This document shows positions 13,644 to 33,995 of a stretch of 34,158 nucleotides of DNA, piece by piece. Both the position numbers and the translations under genes were made by a program. The notes below the pieces were generated by a model. It ran no database searches, was not told where the DNA came from, and worked only from the letters and a program-made list of their open reading frames with translations. Location of the stretch: contig MFYJ01000007.1 of assembly GCA_001787755.1 (NCBI GenBank), positions 42,788 to 76,945 on the forward strand. Reading direction: 5' to 3'. Every line of letters begins with the position of its first letter. Within the stretch, counting starts at the first letter, position 1. The stretch is from Candidatus Peribacteria bacterium RIFOXYB1_FULL_54_35. Lineage in GTDB: Bacteria; Patescibacteriota; Gracilibacteria; Peribacterales; Peribacteraceae.

Positions 13644-14615
13644 ATGCGTTTTTCCTGGCAGGAGGTCCCCCGGCCCATTGTTGCGCTCGCGCCTATGGCG
13701 GGGGTGACGGATGCATCGTACCGCCAGCTCATCAAGCGCATGACGCCGGAAGCAGTCGTGTACACGGAGTTTCTGAGTACCGATGCCATTCATTACGGAG
13801 CAAAGAAAACCATGGGCATGCTGCATTTCGATCCGGTGCTTGAGAGGCCATTCATTGTCCAGATCTTCGGCAAAGAGCCCGCGCACTTCCTCTCTGCTGC
13901 CAAAGTCATTGAGGAACTTGGTGCTGATGGCATAGACATCAACATGGGGTGCCCTGCGGCAAGGGTGACATCTTCCTGCCATGGCTCAGCGCTCATGCGC
14001 AATCCGGAACTCGCCTGTGCACTCGTCGCTGCTACCAAAGATGCAGTCTCCATCCCCGTGAGCGTGAAGACACGTCTGGGGTGGGACACGCCGGACAATC
14101 TGATTTCCTTCTGCACGAAGCTTGTGGAAGCCGGAGCAGATGCACTTGCCGTCCATGGCCGGACGTACACGCAGAAGTTCAGCGGTGCCGCGGACTGGGA
14201 GCCGATCTACGAACTGAAGAAGTCCGTAGGAGTCCCGGTCATCGGCAATGGAGATATCTTCACGGCACGGGATGCCGTGGAGAAGATCGGGAATCTGGAT
14301 GGTGTGATGGTTGGGCGGGGAACATTTGGCAACCCCTGGCTCCTGCGGGATATTGTCGATGCATTTGCTACAGGGGAGATCCGCAGCACGCTGGATCGGA
14401 TGAGTTTTACGGAGAAGATCCCCTTCATCATCGAACATTGTGAGCTTGCTGCAGAAGTGAAGGGGGAGCGGCGCGGTATGCTTGAGATGCGCAAGCACCT
14501 GGCGAGCTACGTGAAAGGTATCGAAGGCGCCCGCGAACTGCGGTCACGTCTCGTACGTGTAGAGAGCATCGCAGAGGTGCAAACCTGCCTGAAACCGTAT
14601 CTGAGAAGTCAGTAG
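13644..14615 (+). CDS. dus: tRNA-dihydrouridine synthase
   Basis: 323 residues, an FMN-dependent TIM-barrel enzyme that reduces uridines in tRNA D-loops. Clear motifs are LAPMAGVTDASYRQL (residues 13-27), the catalytic-cysteine segment INMGCPAARV, SVKTRLGW, AVHGRTYTQKFSG and VIGNGDIF, with the phosphate-binding VMVGRGTFGNPW. The C-terminal helical domain binds tRNA. DusB-like is the best guess, but the subtype is not certain. The gene ends four bases from a hairpin shared with the convergent rplA gene. Confidence 0.92.
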   Translation: MRFSWQEVPRPIVALAPMAGVTDASYRQLIKRMTPEAVVYTEFLSTDAIHYGAKKTMGMLHFDPVLERPFIVQIFGKEPAHFLSAAKVIEELGADGIDINMGCPAARVTSSCHGSALMRNPELACALVAATKDAVSIPVSVKTRLGWDTPDNLISFCTKLVEAGADALAVHGRTYTQKFSGAADWEPIYELKKSVGVPVIGNGDIFTARDAVEKIGNLDGVMVGRGTFGNPWLLRDIVDAFATGEIRSTLDRMSFTEKIPFIIEHCELAAEVKGERRGMLEMRKHLASYVKGIEGARELRSRLVRVESIAEVQTCLKPYLRSQ

Positions 14616-20923: not shown

Positions 20924-21379
20924 ATGCAAGAAGAACCTGTCCTCAGTGGTTCACCAAGAACACCTCATATCTCGGAATGTGTGTTGCAACTTGAACATGG
21001 CCACCGGGCCATGGAGGAACACATGCAGCTGCTCAGTGATGCCGATGGGTTGGCCATCGGGCAGCGGTACGCACCGGGTGGCGAGTGTCTCTCATCCGAT
21101 CCTGCGTTCCCGTTTGAGATCACTCTCCAGCCTAATGATGTAATTGTGAACACCTCTTTTCCGTTTCTCGTGAGGCGTCCTGTGACGGTCAGGGTGACGG
21201 GGATCAGACCTACGTTCTGTTCCATTGCCGTGGACGGGCAAACGTACACTCTTGCCAATGGGGTGCTTGCGCGCGAGTTCCCGAAGATGTTTTTTCCGAG
21301 AGGAGCGGCAGTGGATGCGGTGCAGGGACCGGCGCAGCAGGGGGCGCTTGGCATTGTGGATGCGGCTGAAGGGAAGTGA
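20924..21379 (+). CDS. Hypothetical protein
   Basis: 151 residues, not recognised and without a signal peptide or membrane span. The middle (FEITLQPNDVIVNTSFPFLVRRPVTVRVTGIRPTFCSIAVDGQTYTL) is broken into alternating strands suggestive of a beta-rich domain. For example, VTVRVTGIRPTF and CSIAVDGQTYTL read as strand pairs. The C-terminal 40 residues are Ala/Gly-rich. It precedes tatD, which has its own promoter. Confidence 0.55.
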   Translation: MQEEPVLSGSPRTPHISECVLQLEHGHRAMEEHMQLLSDADGLAIGQRYAPGGECLSSDPAFPFEITLQPNDVIVNTSFPFLVRRPVTVRVTGIRPTFCSIAVDGQTYTLANGVLAREFPKMFFPRGAAVDAVQGPAQQGALGIVDAAEGK

Positions 21380-21444
21380 AATTTTCCAGGAGTGGGAGAT
21401 TGGTATGCGACACAATCGGTTCGCCACCGCTGGCGCCGCCTTTT

Positions 21445-21453
21445 TGCTATGCT
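21445..21453 (+). promoter_or_regulatory. Extended -10 of tatD
   Basis: TGCTATGCT (TG-C-TATGCT), exactly six bases before GTG at 21460. This fixes the tatD start at a GTG codon on a leaderless mRNA. Confidence 0.65.
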
Positions 21454-21459
21454 CCTCCT

Positions 21460-22224
21460 GTGATCGACTCCCACTGTCACCTGGCGGACAAGCAGTTTTC
21501 CAAGGATCTCCCGGCAGTGCTCCGCCGTGCTCAGGAGGCCGGAGTGGGGCGGTGCATCGTCATTGCAGACGATCTAGATGAGTCTGAGAAGTGCCTTTTC
21601 CTGGCCGAGAAATATGAACAACTATTTTGTACAATTGGGGTGCATCCCCATGCGGCGAAGCGCTGGAAAGTAGAGGATCTGGAACGTCTCCGCACCCTGC
21701 TTGCTTCATCGGGAAAAGTGAGAGCCATCGGTGAGATCGGCTTGGATTACTTCTACGATCATTCTCCCAGAGATGTGCAGCGCGATGTGTTCCGCGTGCA
21801 GCTGCAACTTGCAAAAGAGCTCTCGCTCCCGGCTGTCGTGCACTGCCGCGATGCCATGGACGACCTGAAGACGATCATCCGCGAAGTCGATCCTTCCTCT
21901 CTCGTTCTGCACTGTTGTGCAGAGAAGTGGGAGGATGTTCTGCCTCTCGTCGAGAGGGGGTACTTCCTCTCCTTCACGGGCATAGCGACCTATACCAATG
22001 CCCACGGGATCCGGCGCACCATGCGGCTGTGTCCTCTGGAGCAACTGATGATAGAAACTGATGCACCGTACCTTGCGCCGGTGCCGCACCGCGGAAAACG
22101 CAACGAGCCTGCGAACACCGTGGAGGTAGCGAAGCTCCTCGCAGATCTGAAGAAGAAGCCGCTTGCGGAGATTGATGCCATAACCACTGCGAATACGGTG
22201 GCATTCTTCCGGTTGCCTGCCTAA
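21460..22224 (+). CDS. tatD: TatD family metal-dependent DNase/hydrolase
   Basis: 254 residues, TIM-barrel amidohydrolase fold. The start IDSHCHLADKQF contains the HxH metal ligands. AIGEIGLDYFYDHSPRDVQRDVFRVQL carries the metal-binding Glu. The other ligands are the His in VVHCRDA, the His in LHCC and the Asp in IETDAPYLAP. TatD proteins are 3'-5' DNases with roles in DNA repair and RNA/DNA quality control. The GTG start at 21460 matches the first residue of the family and the promoter spacing. Upstream in-frame ATG 21376 would add non-homologous residues. Confidence 0.93.
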   Translation: MIDSHCHLADKQFSKDLPAVLRRAQEAGVGRCIVIADDLDESEKCLFLAEKYEQLFCTIGVHPHAAKRWKVEDLERLRTLLASSGKVRAIGEIGLDYFYDHSPRDVQRDVFRVQLQLAKELSLPAVVHCRDAMDDLKTIIREVDPSSLVLHCCAEKWEDVLPLVERGYFLSFTGIATYTNAHGIRRTMRLCPLEQLMIETDAPYLAPVPHRGKRNEPANTVEVAKLLADLKKKPLAEIDAITTANTVAFFRLPA

Positions 22225-26755: not shown

Positions 26756-26923
26756 ATGGCAAATATCAAATTGTCGGAAGCGCAGCGCAAGCGGCTGGAA
26801 CAGGAGGCGAAGAAGCGCGGCTACGCCCCCGGGCAGTTCCTCGATCTTGTGGCGAAGGGAGTGCGCATCGTCGCCGATCCCATCCCGCCGGTTCGGTGGC
26901 TTTTCAAAAAGAAGAAGAAGTAA
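26756..26923 (+). CDS. Small basic protein of 55 residues
   Basis: Begins MANIKLSEAQRKRLEQEAKK, continues with GYAPGQFLDLVAKGVRIVADPIPPVRW, and ends LFKKKKK. The first half is a charged helix resembling ribbon-helix-helix or anchor peptides. The centre is hydrophobic and the end strongly basic. Function unknown. It is 33 bases after the ATP-grasp stop and probably cotranscribed. The 3' 125 bp from 26804 recur at 29939 as a 5'-truncated copy, so the gene end seems to be the target of the AT-rich island. Confidence 0.65.
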   Translation: MANIKLSEAQRKRLEQEAKKRGYAPGQFLDLVAKGVRIVADPIPPVRWLFKKKKK

Positions 26924-26928
26924 GGAGG
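26804..26928 (+). repeat. Left 125-bp direct repeat bounding the AT-rich island
   Basis: Matches 29939-30063 at 121 of 125 positions, starting GAGGCGAAGAAGCGCGG and ending TAAGGAGG just after the stop codon. The spacing is 3135 bases. Confidence 0.92.
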
Positions 26929-26974
26929 GAGGATACGTTGCTGGAGCAAAGCCAGATGGAGCTCCTTATGGGAA

Positions 26975-26989
26975 CTTATTACAGAATGA
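26975..26989 (+). repeat. Island boundary motif, copy 1 (CTTATTACAGAATGA)
   Basis: Lies 28 bases before the HNH gene. The wider context, CTCCTTATGGGAA then CTTATTACAGAATGA, matches the copy at about 28812-28838. A third copy is at 27541-27555. Confidence 0.6.
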
Positions 26990-27005
26990 AGGAGGAACTA
27001 TAGTG

Positions 27006-27011
27006 TAAAAT
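27006..27011 (+). promoter_or_regulatory. -10 box of the HNH gene
   Basis: TAAAAT, preceded directly by TG, ends six bases before the ATG at 27018. Confidence 0.55.
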
Positions 27012-27017
27012 CCCAGC

Positions 27018-27530
27018 ATGCCTCAAAACGGTGCACCGGTATCCAATTGGGTGGAATCCCTTCTCCGGCAGGAAATTAAGGGTGTATGCCCAAAATGTGG
27101 TAAGTATGAGAGTGACCAATCGGGTTCTTTTACAAATCATCATATCAATGGAGTTCCTTCAATTTCCGAATATTGGAATCTCATTCGTCTTTGTAGAGGT
27201 TGTCATGATAAATGCGAGAATCACAGGGGAGAAGCGCGCTATGAGCGAGATATAAAAAGAATGAAGGCAAATCTCTTCCGTGATTTTCTCGGTCATACCA
27301 CATACGATCTATTGTTGCGTGCTTATGAGAAGGAAAGCGTTCTTACATTTCCATATATTGCACGCACATTGTTACAATTAGGGCTTGGCACTCTTACGCA
27401 GGAAAATCCTGGTACGTTTGGAGCAGCACAAGATAAGCCGACTTTTTCGGTTTATTCCCTTACTGAACAAGGGAAAAAATGGGCAGGTGAATTAAATTTA
27501 AGCTGGGGTGAGACTGAACAATCAACGTAA
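27018..27530 (+). CDS. HNH endonuclease-like protein with C-terminal winged-helix-like part
   Basis: 170 residues. An HNH/zinc-finger core spans residues 24-66: CPKC (C24, C27), HH at 41-42, Asn54 in YWNLIRLC and CxxCH (C59, C62, H63). This is the typical betabeta-alpha-metal nuclease pattern. Residues 95-165 look like a winged helix (FPYIARTLLQLGLGTL, then VYSLTEQGKKWA). HNH proteins nick or cut DNA. In an island they often serve defence or mobility. Base composition is AT-rich like the rest of the island. No methylase or integrase partner is seen. Confidence 0.75.
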   Translation: MPQNGAPVSNWVESLLRQEIKGVCPKCGKYESDQSGSFTNHHINGVPSISEYWNLIRLCRGCHDKCENHRGEARYERDIKRMKANLFRDFLGHTTYDLLLRAYEKESVLTFPYIARTLLQLGLGTLTQENPGTFGAAQDKPTFSVYSLTEQGKKWAGELNLSWGETEQST

Positions 27531-27540
27531 ATATTTGGAG

Positions 27541-27600
27541 CTTATTACAGAATGAGATGCTGGAGTGGGTGGCTGGATGTTATTACACCCAGAGCAATTT
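27541..27600 (+). repeat. Island boundary motif, copy 2, with possible nuclease remnant
   Basis: CTTATTACAGAATGA at 27541-27555 follows the HNH stop by ten bases. Reading on in one frame gives LEWVAGCYY, similar to LEELVAGAY in the Mrr-like domain at 29451, before a stop near 27617. TTATTACA recurs at 27580-27587. This may be a decayed fragment. Confidence 0.4.
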
Positions 27601-27604
27601 GCCT

Positions 27605-28258
27605 CTAGGGGTTTGAACTACTTGTACATTCGATTTGGACAATATTTTGAAGTTTATCTTCAATGCTTAAGCCACAGTCAAATTTTTCCCGTACCACATT
27701 ATTACCAGTAGGACTTGTACATTTGCTTATAAAGAAGCCCGTAGCACAAGAAGCCCACATCAAATCTTCTGGAGTATTAAATGATGTGAACACCAAAGTA
27801 GATGCATCTAACTTTGTGGAATCGCTGGATATAGGTGCGTTCCAAGCATTCTTAGTAATCGACTGGGAGCCAACTCCACCAACCTGAATTACTTCCCCCA
27901 CGTAAACCATTCTTGCATCGTCGGGGACAGTGCCAGTTTTTTCTTCCTTAATAGGCAATTTGTTTGCTTCACACAGGTATATATCATCACCATTCCGGTA
28001 AAGGCCAGACTTAGTGTATTTTACCTTTCTGATTTCTCCAACGGTAAGTTTTGTTGAAGGTGGGAAAATACAAACACGTTCATCGATATGCCCTGATGGT
28101 AAAGTAAACCTAGTTGATACAAATTGGTTCCCACGATATTCATTTGTGTAGTAATAAGCATCCTCATCAGCAATCCAAGTGATCTCAGACTCCTTTGTAT
28201 CGGGTATTGAACAGCCGATTAATAGTAAACACAGTGCTGTTGCGAGCGATCTTTTCAT
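27605..28258 (-). CDS. Predicted lipoprotein of unknown function
   Basis: 217 residues. MKRSLATALCLLLIGCS is a lipoprotein signal with lipobox LIGC, so the mature protein should be lipid-anchored outside the cell. The rest is beta-rich and polar, with several cysteines near the end (CATGFFISKC, then FDCGLS and IECTSS) that could form disulphides. No family is recognised. The ATG at 28258 is used because the signal begins there. A TATGTT box lies nine bases upstream. It is the only minus-strand gene in the island. Confidence 0.65.
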   Translation of the reverse strand: MKRSLATALCLLLIGCSIPDTKESEITWIADEDAYYYTNEYRGNQFVSTRFTLPSGHIDERVCIFPPSTKLTVGEIRKVKYTKSGLYRNGDDIYLCEANKLPIKEEKTGTVPDDARMVYVGEVIQVGGVGSQSITKNAWNAPISSDSTKLDASTLVFTSFNTPEDLMWASCATGFFISKCTSPTGNNVVREKFDCGLSIEDKLQNIVQIECTSSSNP

Positions 28259-28394
28259 GCCAAATACAACATACCTCAGTGTAAGTGTAGTGATCAACTC
28301 CTTTGTGGTGCGTCAGCAGCGCTTAGCACTCGGAGGCTTATTCATAGCGAATAAGAACTTGTTCTGAAACTATTACATGATAGAATTTCTTTAC

Positions 28395-28664
28395 ATGGCT
28401 ACTGATAATCAGAAAATCTCGAGCACGTATAGTATCCCTATAGTCTGGGCATCGTTATTGTTTGTGAGATGGTCGTTTATCGGATTCGAGACCCATGAGG
28501 GGTTCTGGGAAAATGACTCAATGGAGCTAGTTGCAACAATAGTTGTATCGTCTCTGATTGTATATTTTCTGTTTCGGAAAAAGGAGAAAGAGGTAAGGAT
28601 AAAGAAAGTGATTTACTGGATCTTAATTTGTCTTACAATTGGTATTCTTTCAATCGAAAGCTAG
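28395..28664 (+). CDS. Small membrane protein in the island
   Basis: 89 residues from ATG 28395, or 95 from 28377. It has three hydrophobic stretches: about 13-26, 44-59 and 71-86. A basic loop (FRKKEKEVRIKKV) lies between the last two. No family is recognised. It precedes the receiver-Mrr gene on the same strand by about 190 bases. A link between them is only positional. Confidence 0.5.
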   Translation: MATDNQKISSTYSIPIVWASLLFVRWSFIGFETHEGFWENDSMELVATIVVSSLIVYFLFRKKEKEVRIKKVIYWILICLTIGILSIES

Positions 28665-28840
28665 AGCCGTTGTAAGATTTAATAATAATCAGGTATATCT
28701 CATGTTAGGAGATATGGCTTTAATGGAATATTCATCAGAACATCGAATACTGAGCATCGTAATTTGTAACGTCAATAATGCACATTTGTTCGGGCTTCTT
28801 CAGTTTAGAGTTCCTCATGGGAGATTATTACAAAATGAGA
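28665..28840. other. AT-rich gap before the receiver-Mrr gene
   Basis: No convincing gene. Copy 3 of the island motif (ATTATTACAAAATGA, ending at 28838) and its TTCCTCATGGGAG lead-in lie at the 3' end. Confidence 0.4.
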
Positions 28841-28849
28841 TGATATGAT
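28841..28849 (+). promoter_or_regulatory. Extended -10 of the receiver-Mrr gene
   Basis: TGATATGAT (TG-A-TATGAT), seven bases before ATG 28857. It supports that start over the ATG at 28845, which lies inside the box. Confidence 0.6.
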
Positions 28850-28856
28850 ATGTATT

Positions 28857-29825
28857 ATGGATGAGTTAAGTAGAGCGGATGGTATTGAAGATGTAGATAA
28901 CGTAAGGATTCTTCATATTTCCTCTAATCCTATTGTTTTGAAAGAAGTTGGCAGTTTATTGTTGAGTAGTGGATTTCTTTCTTATGCGGTTCAACGTGAT
29001 GATGTTCCTATGGAGCAAATTATTTTGCTTAAGCCCGATCTTATTCTTTTTGATATAGACTATCCATCATCTCTTTCAATAGTTGAAGAAATATTAAGTA
29101 GAGAGCCAAACATTCCTTTGATAATCATTTCAAGTTTACAGAAGGGAAATGAATTGTTGACGGTGAAAGCACTTAAGATGGGTGTTTCCATATATGTGCA
29201 ACCAAAAGCGATTCAAGATACGCTTATAAGAGCGGTAAAAAGCATGTTGTCATTACAGGGGTGGGAAAATGATGCCCCCAGTATTAGTGTTCTTACAGAA
29301 GAATCGGAACCCTTGCTAATAGGTGATGAGACAGACGAAGGATTATTGGTTAAAAATGTTAGTATACCTTGGTTTGCTCTTTCAAAAGAGTTAAGGAGAA
29401 ACCCCGAATTTCTTTTTAAGATACCATGGAGAAGGCTTGAGGAGTTGGTGGCTGGTGCATATGTGGGAGATGGTTGGGCTAGAGTTGTGTTGACCCCTCG
29501 ATCTGGGGATAAAGGTAGAGATGTAATAGTATCGGGGAGTCCAGGAGGTGATACTATTCAGATAGTTGATCAGGTAAAAGCTTATGCTAAAGGCAATAAT
29601 GTATCAGCAGATGAAGTGAGAGCTCTCATTGGAGTCCTTCATCCTGATAATAATTCGTCGAAAGGTTTTGTAACTACTACATCTTCTTTTGCTCCGGGTG
29701 TTTATAGCGACAAAATCATTCAATCTTTTGTACCAAATAGACTAGAGCTTATAGATGGAGAGAAACTTAGAGCATGCTTATCTAAAATAAATAGAAAGAA
29801 GAAAGGCAATGAAGGAAGAAGCTAA
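28857..29825 (+). CDS. Degenerate receiver domain fused to Mrr-type restriction endonuclease domain
   Basis: 322 residues. Residues 15-131 follow the response-regulator receiver fold: VRILHISSNP, then PDLILFDIDYP with Asp66 at the phospho-acceptor position, LIIISS and VSIYVQP. The acidic metal pair after strand 1 is Ser22-Ser23, and the conserved lysine is Gln115, so phosphorylation is doubtful. After a linker, residues 186-310 match the Mrr catalytic domain: WRRLEELVAGAYVGDGW, SGDKGRDVIV with Asp222, DQVKAY with Gln239 and Lys241 (D...QxK), GFVTTTSSFAPG and LELIDGEKL. Mrr-like nucleases cut modified or foreign DNA. A receiver-like input is unusual. The gene is AT-rich and was probably acquired. 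Confidence 0.8.
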   Translation: MDELSRADGIEDVDNVRILHISSNPIVLKEVGSLLLSSGFLSYAVQRDDVPMEQIILLKPDLILFDIDYPSSLSIVEEILSREPNIPLIIISSLQKGNELLTVKALKMGVSIYVQPKAIQDTLIRAVKSMLSLQGWENDAPSISVLTEESEPLLIGDETDEGLLVKNVSIPWFALSKELRRNPEFLFKIPWRRLEELVAGAYVGDGWARVVLTPRSGDKGRDVIVSGSPGGDTIQIVDQVKAYAKGNNVSADEVRALIGVLHPDNNSSKGFVTTTSSFAPGVYSDKIIQSFVPNRLELIDGEKLRACLSKINRKKKGNEGRS

Positions 29826-29833
29826 GATAGGTG

Positions 29834-29879
29834 AGCTAAAGAGAAGGTCGTCTTTGGTGTAGCTTCCCCTATTATTTTT
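29834..29879 (+). terminator. Possible terminator of the receiver-Mrr gene
   Basis: Imperfect arms AGCTAAAGA and TCTTTGGTGTAGCT are followed after about 8 bases by ATTATTTTTTT ending at 29879. It lies ten bases after the stop codon. Confidence 0.5.
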
Positions 29880-29938
29880 TTGGACATGCCCAAACCATAC
29901 CCACAGGGCAGTCAAGGTGGAGATGAGTCCCGCATAAC

Positions 29939-30063
29939 GAGGCGAAGAAGCGCGGCTACCCTCCCGGGCAGTTCCTCGATCTTGTGGCGAAGGGTGTGCG
30001 CATCGTTGCCGATCCCATCCCGCCGGTTCGGTGGCTTTTCAAAAAGAAGAAGAAGTAAGGAGG
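29939..30063 (+). pseudogene. 5'-truncated copy of the 55-aa gene; right direct repeat of the island
   Basis: Carries the last 39 codons and stop of the gene at 26756, with four base differences in 125. The frame runs up to a TGA at 29924 without a start codon, so it is not expected to be made. It marks the right edge of the AT-rich island. Confidence 0.85.
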
Positions 30064-30070
30064 AGATCTG

Positions 30071-30328
30071 TCAGCCTAATTTACATGCTTCTTCTAGGTG
30101 CTTCTTTACGAATGCTCTGCCTGAATGGGATTTAAGATATTCCTCAAATTCTTTTGCTTTTGTGTAACTGACAAATGATACGGCCATTCGCAGTTTCCAC
30201 GGTTTGTGCTTGTTTGTATGAATACTTTTTCCGCCGTTGTGTTCGGTGAGTCTACGTCGGATATCATTTGTCATTCCGATGTACCAGTGTTTCTCGTTCT
30301 CTGATTCAAGATAGTACACATAGGGCAT
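30071..30328 (-). CDS. GIY-YIG domain nuclease-like protein
   Basis: 85 residues. YVYYLESENEKHWYIGMTNDIRRRL has the GIY (VYY) and YIG elements and the arginine region. The glutamate in AKEFEEYLKSHSGRAF completes the active site. It is of the short stand-alone YhbQ/UvrC-N type; a role is not established. It is the second such gene in the window and again lies near tRNA genes. A minus-strand TAAAAT box lies exactly six bases before the ATG. It starts just outside the right repeat of the island. Confidence 0.88.
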   Translation of the reverse strand: MPYVYYLESENEKHWYIGMTNDIRRRLTEHNGGKSIHTNKHKPWKLRMAVSFVSYTKAKEFEEYLKSHSGRAFVKKHLEEACKLG

Positions 30329-30340: not shown

Positions 30341-30379
30341 TTTGCCCGGCTCCGTTCTTGTCATGCTCGAACTGCGCCG

Positions 30380-30456
30380 AGGCATCCGGCTTCGTGTTTT
30401 TTGGCTTCGCTACAATCTCGGCGTAGTTCTATGCTTGCATAGAACGAAGCCGGATG
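30380..30456. repeat. Inverted repeat at the 3' end of tRNA-Gly(CCC)
   Basis: Arms CATCCGGCTTCGT (about 30380-30392) and ACGAAGCCGGATG (about 30444-30456) touch the encoded CCA of the tRNA. An inner hairpin GTTCTATG-CTTG-CATAGAAC lies at about 30425-30444. The layout resembles the inverted repeat at the 3' end of tRNA-Arg. Confidence 0.7.
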
Positions 30457-30528
30457 GAGCGGGATACGAGAATCGAACTCGCGTCTCAAGCTTGGGAAGC
30501 TTGCATACTACCACTGTACTAATCCCGC
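30455..30528 (-). tRNA. tRNA-Gly (anticodon CCC), CCA encoded
   Basis: Acceptor GCGGGAT pairs with ATCCCGC, then T and CCA. The anticodon stem CAAGC/GCTTG encloses loop TTCCCAA, giving CCC (glycine). The T arm is ACGAG-TTCGATT-CTCGT. Confidence 0.94.
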
Positions 30529-30617
30529 AATTTCGTGGAAGACAAATGAGTGTGCGGTATTTATACCATATTGTTGTGTGCACAGATAAAAAAATGAGCT
30601 GAAGGCAGGCGAGTTTA

Positions 30618-30636
30618 TCCTGAGCTTGTCGAAGGG
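30618..30636. repeat. Dispersed palindromic repeat between tRNA-Gly genes
   Basis: TCCTGAGCTTGTCGAAGGG, with flanking AGGCAGGC and GCCTGCCT extending the stem. It is the most compact member of the family seen at 257-292 and 15384-15426. No gene is seen in 30529-30742. Confidence 0.6.
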
Positions 30637-30742
30637 CCTGCCTGGAAGCTCCACCATGCAAGGGGAAAGAGAGTACATGAGAGAAAAACCGGCTTGTCGG
30701 CCATAGCCTTGGCGACGGCCGAAGGTTTGCCCCTCGCGAGAG

Positions 30743-32444: not shown

Positions 32445-33995
32445 ATGTCACGCCGCTACATCACTACCGCCATCGACTATCCCAATGCCGCACCCCACAT
32501 GGGGCATGTGCTGGAGAAGGTGCTGGCAGACGTGGTGGTGCGCTGGTTCCGTCTCTGCGGTGATGCTGTGCGGTTCCAAATCGGGACAGATGAACATGGA
32601 ACGAAGATCCAGCGTACGGCGGAGAAAGAGGGGATTTCACCTAAGCAGCTGGTGGACCGCAATGTTCCGCTCTTTGAAGATCTCTACCAGCGGCTCAGCA
32701 TTTCCTACGACAAGTTCATCCGCACATCCGACGAGAGAGGGCACTATCCCACAGTCCAGGAACTGTGGAGGAGGCTTGCGAAGGCAGGGGTGCTGGAGAA
32801 ACGTACGTACACGGGGCTCTACTGCAGCGGCTGTGAGCGCTTTATGACCAAGCGTGATCTCCTCGGAGGCAAGTGTCCGAATCATCAGGTAGAGCCCGAG
32901 AAGGTCACGGAGGAGAACTGGTTCCTGAAGATGAGCGAGTACGGCGAGGAGCTGAAAAATCTCCTCACGAAAGACTGGGACGGAGAGAAGTACCGCATCG
33001 TCCCCCAGTTCCGGGAGAATGAAACACTCTCGCTCATAGACCAGGGGCTGGAAGATGTCTCCTTCTCACGGCCGAAGTCGAGCCTGGAGTGGGGGATTCC
33101 CGTTCCGGGAGACGATGAGCAGATCATGTACGTGTGGTGCGACGCTCTCACCAATTACATCTCTGGTCTCGGGTACTTCACCGGCCGCGAAGAGCGTGAG
33201 TGGTGGGATAAACCGGCAGTTGTTACTCATGTCATAGGCAAGGATATTGCGCGGTTTCATGCACTCATCTGGCCGCTCATGCTGCAGAAGGCCGGCGTGC
33301 GCCTCCCCGATGAGCTCCTCATCCATGGGTTCCTCACGAGCGAAGGGGAGAAGATGAGCAAGTCCCTCGGCAATGTCGTCGTGCCGGATGATGTACTGGA
33401 AAAATTCAAAGGCAATCCAGATCCGTTGCGGTTCTACCTGAGTCACGAGGTGCCGGTGGGACGCGACGGAGACTTCTCCTGGGATCGGTTCAAGAAGCTC
33501 TATGATGCTGCTCTCCGCAACAAATTGGGCAATTTGCTCAATAGGGTCCTTGTCTTGCTTCATAAGGAGGGAGGTCGGCTTGCGATACCAACAGGTGATC
33601 CTCAGCGAAAAGAGATCGTGCGTCATTGGGATGCATTTGCTGAACAAATGGATGTCTATGAGGTTTCGAATGCAATTTCTGCCCATCCAATGGCTATAGT
33701 TGAGGGAGGGAACCTTCGGATGGATGAGAAGAAGCCATGGACTCTCTCTGGCAAAGAGAAAGTGGAGGTGCTCAGTGCCATTGCAGAGATGCTCCGCCAC
33801 ATCGGATTGATGCTGCTTCCCTTCATTCCTGATACTGCGTACCGCATTTCCAAACAGCTCAATATTCCGTATGCCGAAGAAATGCTGAAGAAGGACTTCA
33901 TAATCACGAAGGCCATGAAGCAATGGGGAGGAGTGCAGGATTGGGGTTCTGTCGGTCAGCCTGAAATTCTCTTCGCTCCGCTTGAGGATGAGTGA
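32445..33995 (+). CDS. metG: Methionyl-tRNA synthetase
   Basis: 516 residues, class I synthetase. The start RRYITTAIDYPNAAPHMGHVLEKV contains the HIGH-type motif HMGH. IGTDEHGTKI, the zinc-knuckle region YCSGCERF with KCPNH, VWCDALTNYISGLGY and VIGKDIARFHALIWP follow. The signature GEKMSKSLGNVV is the KMSKS loop. The C-terminal helical anticodon-binding domain is present, but no extra tRNA-binding (Arc1p-like) domain follows, so it is the short form. It charges tRNA-Met. A weak -10 (TAGTCT) lies nine bases before the ATG. Confidence 0.97.
   Translation: MSRRYITTAIDYPNAAPHMGHVLEKVLADVVVRWFRLCGDAVRFQIGTDEHGTKIQRTAEKEGISPKQLVDRNVPLFEDLYQRLSISYDKFIRTSDERGHYPTVQELWRRLAKAGVLEKRTYTGLYCSGCERFMTKRDLLGGKCPNHQVEPEKVTEENWFLKMSEYGEELKNLLTKDWDGEKYRIVPQFRENETLSLIDQGLEDVSFSRPKSSLEWGIPVPGDDEQIMYVWCDALTNYISGLGYFTGREEREWWDKPAVVTHVIGKDIARFHALIWPLMLQKAGVRLPDELLIHGFLTSEGEKMSKSLGNVVVPDDVLEKFKGNPDPLRFYLSHEVPVGRDGDFSWDRFKKLYDAALRNKLGNLLNRVLVLLHKEGGRLAIPTGDPQRKEIVRHWDAFAEQMDVYEVSNAISAHPMAIVEGGNLRMDEKKPWTLSGKEKVEVLSAIAEMLRHIGLMLLPFIPDTAYRISKQLNIPYAEEMLKKDFIITKAMKQWGGVQDWGSVGQPEILFAPLEDE

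Follow-up and report, generated by a model that had tools for sequence, protein, structure and literature searches.

An AT-rich block between 125-bp direct repeats beside tRNA-Gly genes in a Candidatus Peribacteria genome is consistent with stepwise growth of a variable locus and carries a putative nested HNH nuclease gene

Genomic islands of the tyrosine-recombinase type, which lie at tRNA genes and at the 3' ends of protein genes, are the described systems that come closest to the locus presented here. The locus has in common with them a foreign composition, a variable position on the side of tRNA genes and the duplication of a gene's 3' end, but it differs in that its AT-rich block has no integrase (the genome has only a XerD-like protein), the target gene is an orphan and AT-rich DNA is found past one of the repeats. 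Integron cassette arrays are also comparable, in having same-strand repeats between gene modules; here, however, the repeats have a 19-bp core that by our reading is devoid of GTTRRRY-type arms. Free-standing HNH homing endonuclease genes have been reviewed for T4-like phages (PMC2988022). In likeness to such genes, our locus has a putatively inserted unit that is nearly all one HNH gene and a relative has the uninterrupted site, although the unit is bordered by 19-bp direct repeats, which are not required by plain break-repair homing. Lastly, the protein encoded at 28845-29825 resembles the products of type IV (Mrr-like) restriction genes in its C-terminal domain (Mrr_cat, PF04471) and differs from them in a weak receiver-like N-terminal domain, with no close relative found. 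The arrangement of the block as a whole is not described in the titles and abstracts that we consulted on integrase islands and HNH homing. We lean slightly towards the reading that the block was built by multi-step accretion in a hot spot, with a nested HNH insertion, and did not arrive whole as one element.

The window, by which we mean the whole stretch of DNA analysed, comprises 34,158 nucleotides of Candidatus Peribacteria bacterium RIFOXYB1_FULL_54_35. The features in and beside the block are the following:

21376-22224: tatD, the left border of the hot spot.
26756-26923, forward strand: intact copy of a 55-aa orphan ORF, its 3' part being the left direct repeat.
26804-26928, forward strand: left copy of the 125-bp direct repeat, made of codons 17-55 and the stop of the 55-aa ORF and 5 further bases.
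27018-27530, forward strand: HNH endonuclease-like protein of 170 aa, from family matches.
27605-28297, reverse strand: orphan of 230 aa with a lipobox-like N terminus (LLIGCS), an ORF with no family match.
28377-28664, forward strand: orphan of 95 aa, a probable membrane protein, from the ORF and a family search.
28845-29825, forward strand: 326-aa protein with a receiver-like domain (PF00072, E 1.7e-4) fused to an Mrr-type restriction endonuclease domain (PF04471, E 1.9e-17; both Pfam).
29939-30063, forward strand: right copy of the 125-bp direct repeat, a truncated 55-aa gene without a start, from the repeat comparison.
30071-30328, reverse strand: GIY-YIG endonuclease gene outside the right repeat, of a family abundant in these genomes.
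30455-30528, reverse strand: tRNA-Gly (ccc), the right edge of the variable locus.

The first-pass annotation had reported that the last 125 bp of the 55-aa gene recur some 3 kb downstream, and this is confirmed: 26804-26928 and 29939-30063 are identical at 121 of 125 positions, with a start-to-start spacing of 3135 bp. The 1.56-Mb genome has no further copy, and the pair is the sole direct repeat on the 400-kb contig with a length of at least 100 bp, an identity of at least 95% and copies less than 10 kb apart. As in an island made by an integrase, the end of the target gene is repeated and the left ORF is intact, while the right copy has no start codon although its 55-aa reading frame is still open. 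The sequence immediately after 30063 is AGATCTGTCAGCC. When the frame was placed by reading, two of the four mismatches between the copies fell in one codon (A24P, GCC/CCT) and the other two at synonymous third positions. Because the differences amount to one changed codon and two synonymous changes, they suggest, as far as four sites can, that both versions of the frame evolved as coding sequence.

Shared frame and mostly synonymous change would also be expected if the 55-aa gene had been duplicated locally in tandem and an AT-rich insertion between the copies had then removed the 5' end of the second, and local repeats are not rare on this contig. We consider such a history improbable, as neither the 5' part of a second copy nor its upstream spacer can be traced beside 29939 and the doublet is seen in no other genome. 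An assembly artefact, in which two strain variants were joined via the 125-bp repeat, has in its favour that the genome is a draft of 16 contigs and that such joins fall at repeats of about read length. Yet there are four differences between the copies, the block is internal to a contig of 399,782 bp and has genes conserved in relatives on its borders, and an artefact leaves unexplained the match of the nested insertion to a relative (G022) that is described below, so that this explanation is very unlikely.

No homologue of the 55-aa gene was found in the other genomes searched (59 relatives and 380 genomes of the phylum), nor was there a worthwhile relative in the genome_contigs, plasmid or IMG/VR collections. 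One genome_contigs match (L069) was rejected, as it consists of 25 residues within an unrelated longer frame. The protein has a weak N-terminal match to phage family phrog_5333. Since the gene is absent from all other genomes searched, the data contain no empty site for it, and it belongs to the variable portion of the locus.

The base counts given earlier for two stretches, 14 G/C in 60 at 29041-29100 and 37 in 60 at 14041-14100, are exact, and the 3.0 kb between the repeats (26929-29938) have 39.6% G+C, whereas the contig averages 54.9% (s.d. 3.1% in 3-kb windows). The block is therefore AT-rich, as the first-pass annotation proposed, but the repeat does not frame all of the AT-rich DNA. Host-like DNA lies outside the left repeat, whereas outside the right one is the GIY-YIG gene, with 40.7% G+C, and then tRNA genes; the DNA of foreign composition spans 26929-30328. 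One other block of the contig, at 257.5-260.3 kb, is equally AT-rich. This second block (C7:257490-260304, L106-L107) lies directly after the xerD-like gene and consists of orphan genes at about 35-42% G+C, among them genes for a putative lipoprotein and membrane proteins. The genome also has a perfect 118-bp inverted repeat (C7:145712-145829 and 150431-150548, 4.8 kb apart) and, nearby, a perfect 79-bp inverted pair (C7:150543-150621 and 152020-152098).

For comparison with relatives we used metG as the anchor in 57 genomes of the family and compared the upstream DNA for 16; a conserved upstream ATP-grasp neighbour was rejected as an anchor because it sits in other contexts in relatives. Core gene order was conserved at about 5-22 kb of the window and from 31 kb to metG. 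In this genome tatD is 8.2 kb from the nearest tRNA-Gly. Across 15 relatives the distance spans 45 bp to 13.8 kb, and several of them have a nearly empty locus; examples are 45-46 bp in G079, G070 and G019, 134-269 bp in G032 and G072, 4.1 kb in G001, 6.3 kb in G022 and 13.8 kb in G006. The interval of the genus mate G001 contains genes for an AlkD-like protein, a cold-shock protein, a lipoprotein-like protein and a carbamoyltransferase (names by reading). Given an interval of 45 bp to 13.8 kb with variable contents and core genes kept on both sides, the stretch from tatD to tRNA-Gly is a recombination hot spot.

The right edge of the hot spot has some further features. Beyond the GIY-YIG gene there are two tRNA-Gly genes, and a long imperfect palindrome (30369-30456) abuts tRNA-Gly. 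Such palindromes end in GAAGCCGGATGGAGC or a variant, and by our reading one of them in G022 (L050:4680-4800) precedes 20 bp that repeat the 3' end of tRNA-Gly. At 30600-30640, in the spacer of the two tRNA-Gly genes, is a TCCTGAGCTTGTCGAAGGG-type interspersed repeat, of a sort familiar from many bacterial genomes. The metG product (32445-33995) is 79% identical in amino acids to that of G022, a genome of 36.7% G+C, versus 74-75% to those of the genus mates G001 and G002; this closeness to G022 makes a past exchange next to the hot spot possible.

Inside the block we found a 19-bp repeat, GGARCTTATTACARAATGA and close variants, with three copies genome-wide, all of them within the block. The form TTATTACARAATGA likewise has three copies in 1.56 Mb at no more than one mismatch, all in the block and on the same strand, and the 14-base core of the repeat occurs nowhere else in the genome with one mismatch allowed. 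The core sequence of the site is GGARCTTATWACAGAATGA, and the copies are placed as follows:

26944-26989, forward strand: left half of the repeat-family site of copy A, identical at 41 of 46 positions to the C20:63233 region of G022.
26971-26989, forward strand: 19-bp core of copy A, the left border of the HNH unit.
27537-27555, forward strand: 19-bp core of copy B, the right border of the HNH unit, with a right flank, GATGCTGGAG, that matches the G022 sites.
28820-28838, forward strand: 19-bp core of copy C, in a site (28808-28842) that has some of each flank.

The G022 site at C20:63233 is at the same locus, near tRNA-Gly, and a second G022 copy (C20:91017) is 28 kb away beside a cold-shock gene. 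When 353 genomes of the class were searched with a 23-nt form of the repeat, two matches each were found only in its own genome (G000) and in G022, with one each, at three mismatches, in 3 others. Among these 353 genomes, G022 is the only one with convincing relatives of the 19-bp repeat, one of them at the same locus. Three matches in IMG/VR are about what is expected by chance. No Rfam family matched at the positions of the repeat, and two coding readings of it were rejected on inspection: in the frame MELLMG most differences between copy A and G022 are non-synonymous, and in the frame WSSLWELITE the conservation extends beyond the stop. The DNA shared with the G022 locus starts 15 nt inside the left 125-bp repeat. 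Because a repeat just inside the left copy is common to the same locus in G022, these results point to stepwise growth with DNA that is associated with the locus.

These comparisons bear on another explanation of the duplicated gene end, which is that a single non-autonomous or decayed integrative element inserted site-specifically into the 55-aa gene's 3' end, leaving the repeats as attL and attR, and that its recombinase acted in trans or was lost. The earlier observation that no integrase is visible agrees with our family searches, in which no ORF of the island matched a site-specific recombinase. The genome's only PF00589 protein (contig C7, 256.8 kb) shares 80-83% identity with the versions in genus mates and 70% with the one in G022, and by its sequence it is a XerD-like housekeeping gene; this genome-wide result covers tyrosine recombinases (PF00589), as distinct from serine recombinases, transposases and plasmid functions. 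An integrative element would account well for an intact left gene with a 5'-truncated right copy, for a repeat that ends 5 bases past the stop, for copies that are 97% identical with differences fitting selection on the reading frame, and for the sharp change of composition inside. It would account less well for a block with no recombinase in a genome with that sole XerD-like protein, or for a target that is not a conserved host gene. AT-rich DNA also extends beyond the right repeat and the DNA from 15 nt inside the left repeat is common to the same G022 locus, so that one integrase-made element is disfavoured and in our view rather unlikely. Of the site-specific integration suggested by the first-pass annotation we thus retain the foreign composition, the mostly orphan genes, the missing integrase and the variable locus, but integration at the 55-aa gene is unsupported, with an orphan as target and AT-rich DNA past the right repeat.

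Among the genes of the block, the HNH protein has an HNH-domain match in PHROGs (E 2e-5) and matches the HNH part of PADLOC ZorE (2e-6), while its Pfam HNH match (E 0.049) is below the cut-off. By reading, its motif is CPKC...NHH...N...CRGCH. The only matches in 379 other genomes of the phylum were two distant ones to HNH domains, and no relatives were found in IMG/VR, plasmids or phages; a single-sequence AlphaFold model was uninformative (mean pLDDT 40.9). For the 230-aa putative lipoprotein and the 95-aa putative membrane protein, orphan status rests on searches of family libraries. The receiver-Mrr protein has no relative in 56 other genomes of the family, and a search of IMG/VR, plasmids and phages gave only generic Mrr-domain matches, in plasmids.

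Copies A and B of the 19-bp repeat frame a unit of 566 bp, 513 bp of which are the HNH ORF. Copy A agrees with the G022 site from its left flank to the end of the core, and copy B agrees with it rightwards from where the core begins. When the HNH unit was taken out and the left side of A joined to the right side of B, the result matched G022 C20:63233 over 58 nt with a score of 79, versus 67 for A and 45 for B. With random right flanks drawn from the region, 3 of 3000 equalled the score of 79 and none exceeded it, and these draws may include the true position. Removal of the segment between B and C gave no better match to the G022 sites (score 39-40 versus 79). Since removing the unit rebuilds the 58-nt match, we take the G022 site to be its empty counterpart and conclude that the HNH unit, encoding a putative nuclease, entered a site of this kind and has a 19-bp duplication at its borders. 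It is possible that the repeat reached the hot spot independently in the two genomes, the G022 match being short (58 nt) and a second G022 copy being present at C20:91017.

The repeats, which border the modules in three copies on one strand and occur at no other locus of this genome, could alternatively be the recombination sites of an integron-like array, each ending a cassette (HNH; lipoprotein and membrane protein; Mrr). This we regard as highly improbable: an integron integrase is absent, the one PF00589 gene being XerD-like, the second module has genes on both strands, the G022 sites occur singly, and only the removal of A-B, not that of B-C, rebuilds a G022 site.

A locus of G218 (L068:1410-2037) offers a parallel to the nested HNH unit that is suggestive only. 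A 161-aa HNH open frame is flanked there by perfect direct repeats of 20 bp that are spaced 549 bp apart and correspond to the 5' part of a tRNA-Leu gene; the intact tRNA-Leu is at L068 1410-1493 on the reverse strand. The G218 protein is one of the two distant phylum matches to the HNH protein of the block. A duplication of about 20 bp as a rule around HNH genes was rejected, because among the G218 protein's viral relatives only 1 of the 19 tested (L140, 16 nt) was clearly above shuffled flanks; these viral genes are often among tRNA genes and are mostly without such repeats. That a minimal mobile HNH-gene unit of about 550 bp, which duplicates a short target as a direct repeat of about 20 bp, recurs across lineages of the phylum, with G218 as the second case, is a tentative idea that we think doubtful.

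Under the stepwise accretion that we prefer, the AT-rich DNA would have entered by recombination at the hot spot, with a relative of low G+C, for instance the G022 lineage (36.7% G+C), as the probable source. The HNH unit would have inserted alone into a 19-bp core, in the manner of a mobile nuclease gene, and the 125-bp repeat would be the scar of an event that joined the 3' end of the 55-aa gene to AT-rich DNA twice. Most simply, the resident gene may have undergone one crossover with an incoming (circular) DNA that had this 3' end too, an exchange that needs no integrase. We assign no relative order to these events. A G022-like donor is probable from base composition and the short repeat only; no relative of the HNH or Mrr protein was found in G022, and tetranucleotide similarity to G022 (r 0.86 versus -0.11) reflects mostly base composition and was not used as proof of a donor. 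It also counts against accretion that the 55-aa gene is in no relative, so that the step making the 125-bp repeat is seen nowhere.

Read as stepwise accretion, the block shows an accessory locus of a small-genome bacterium growing without an integrase of its own. For the insertion of the HNH gene, it would provide a pair of empty and occupied sites at base resolution. If such units leave a target duplication, they would represent a way for nuclease genes to move that differs from plain homing.
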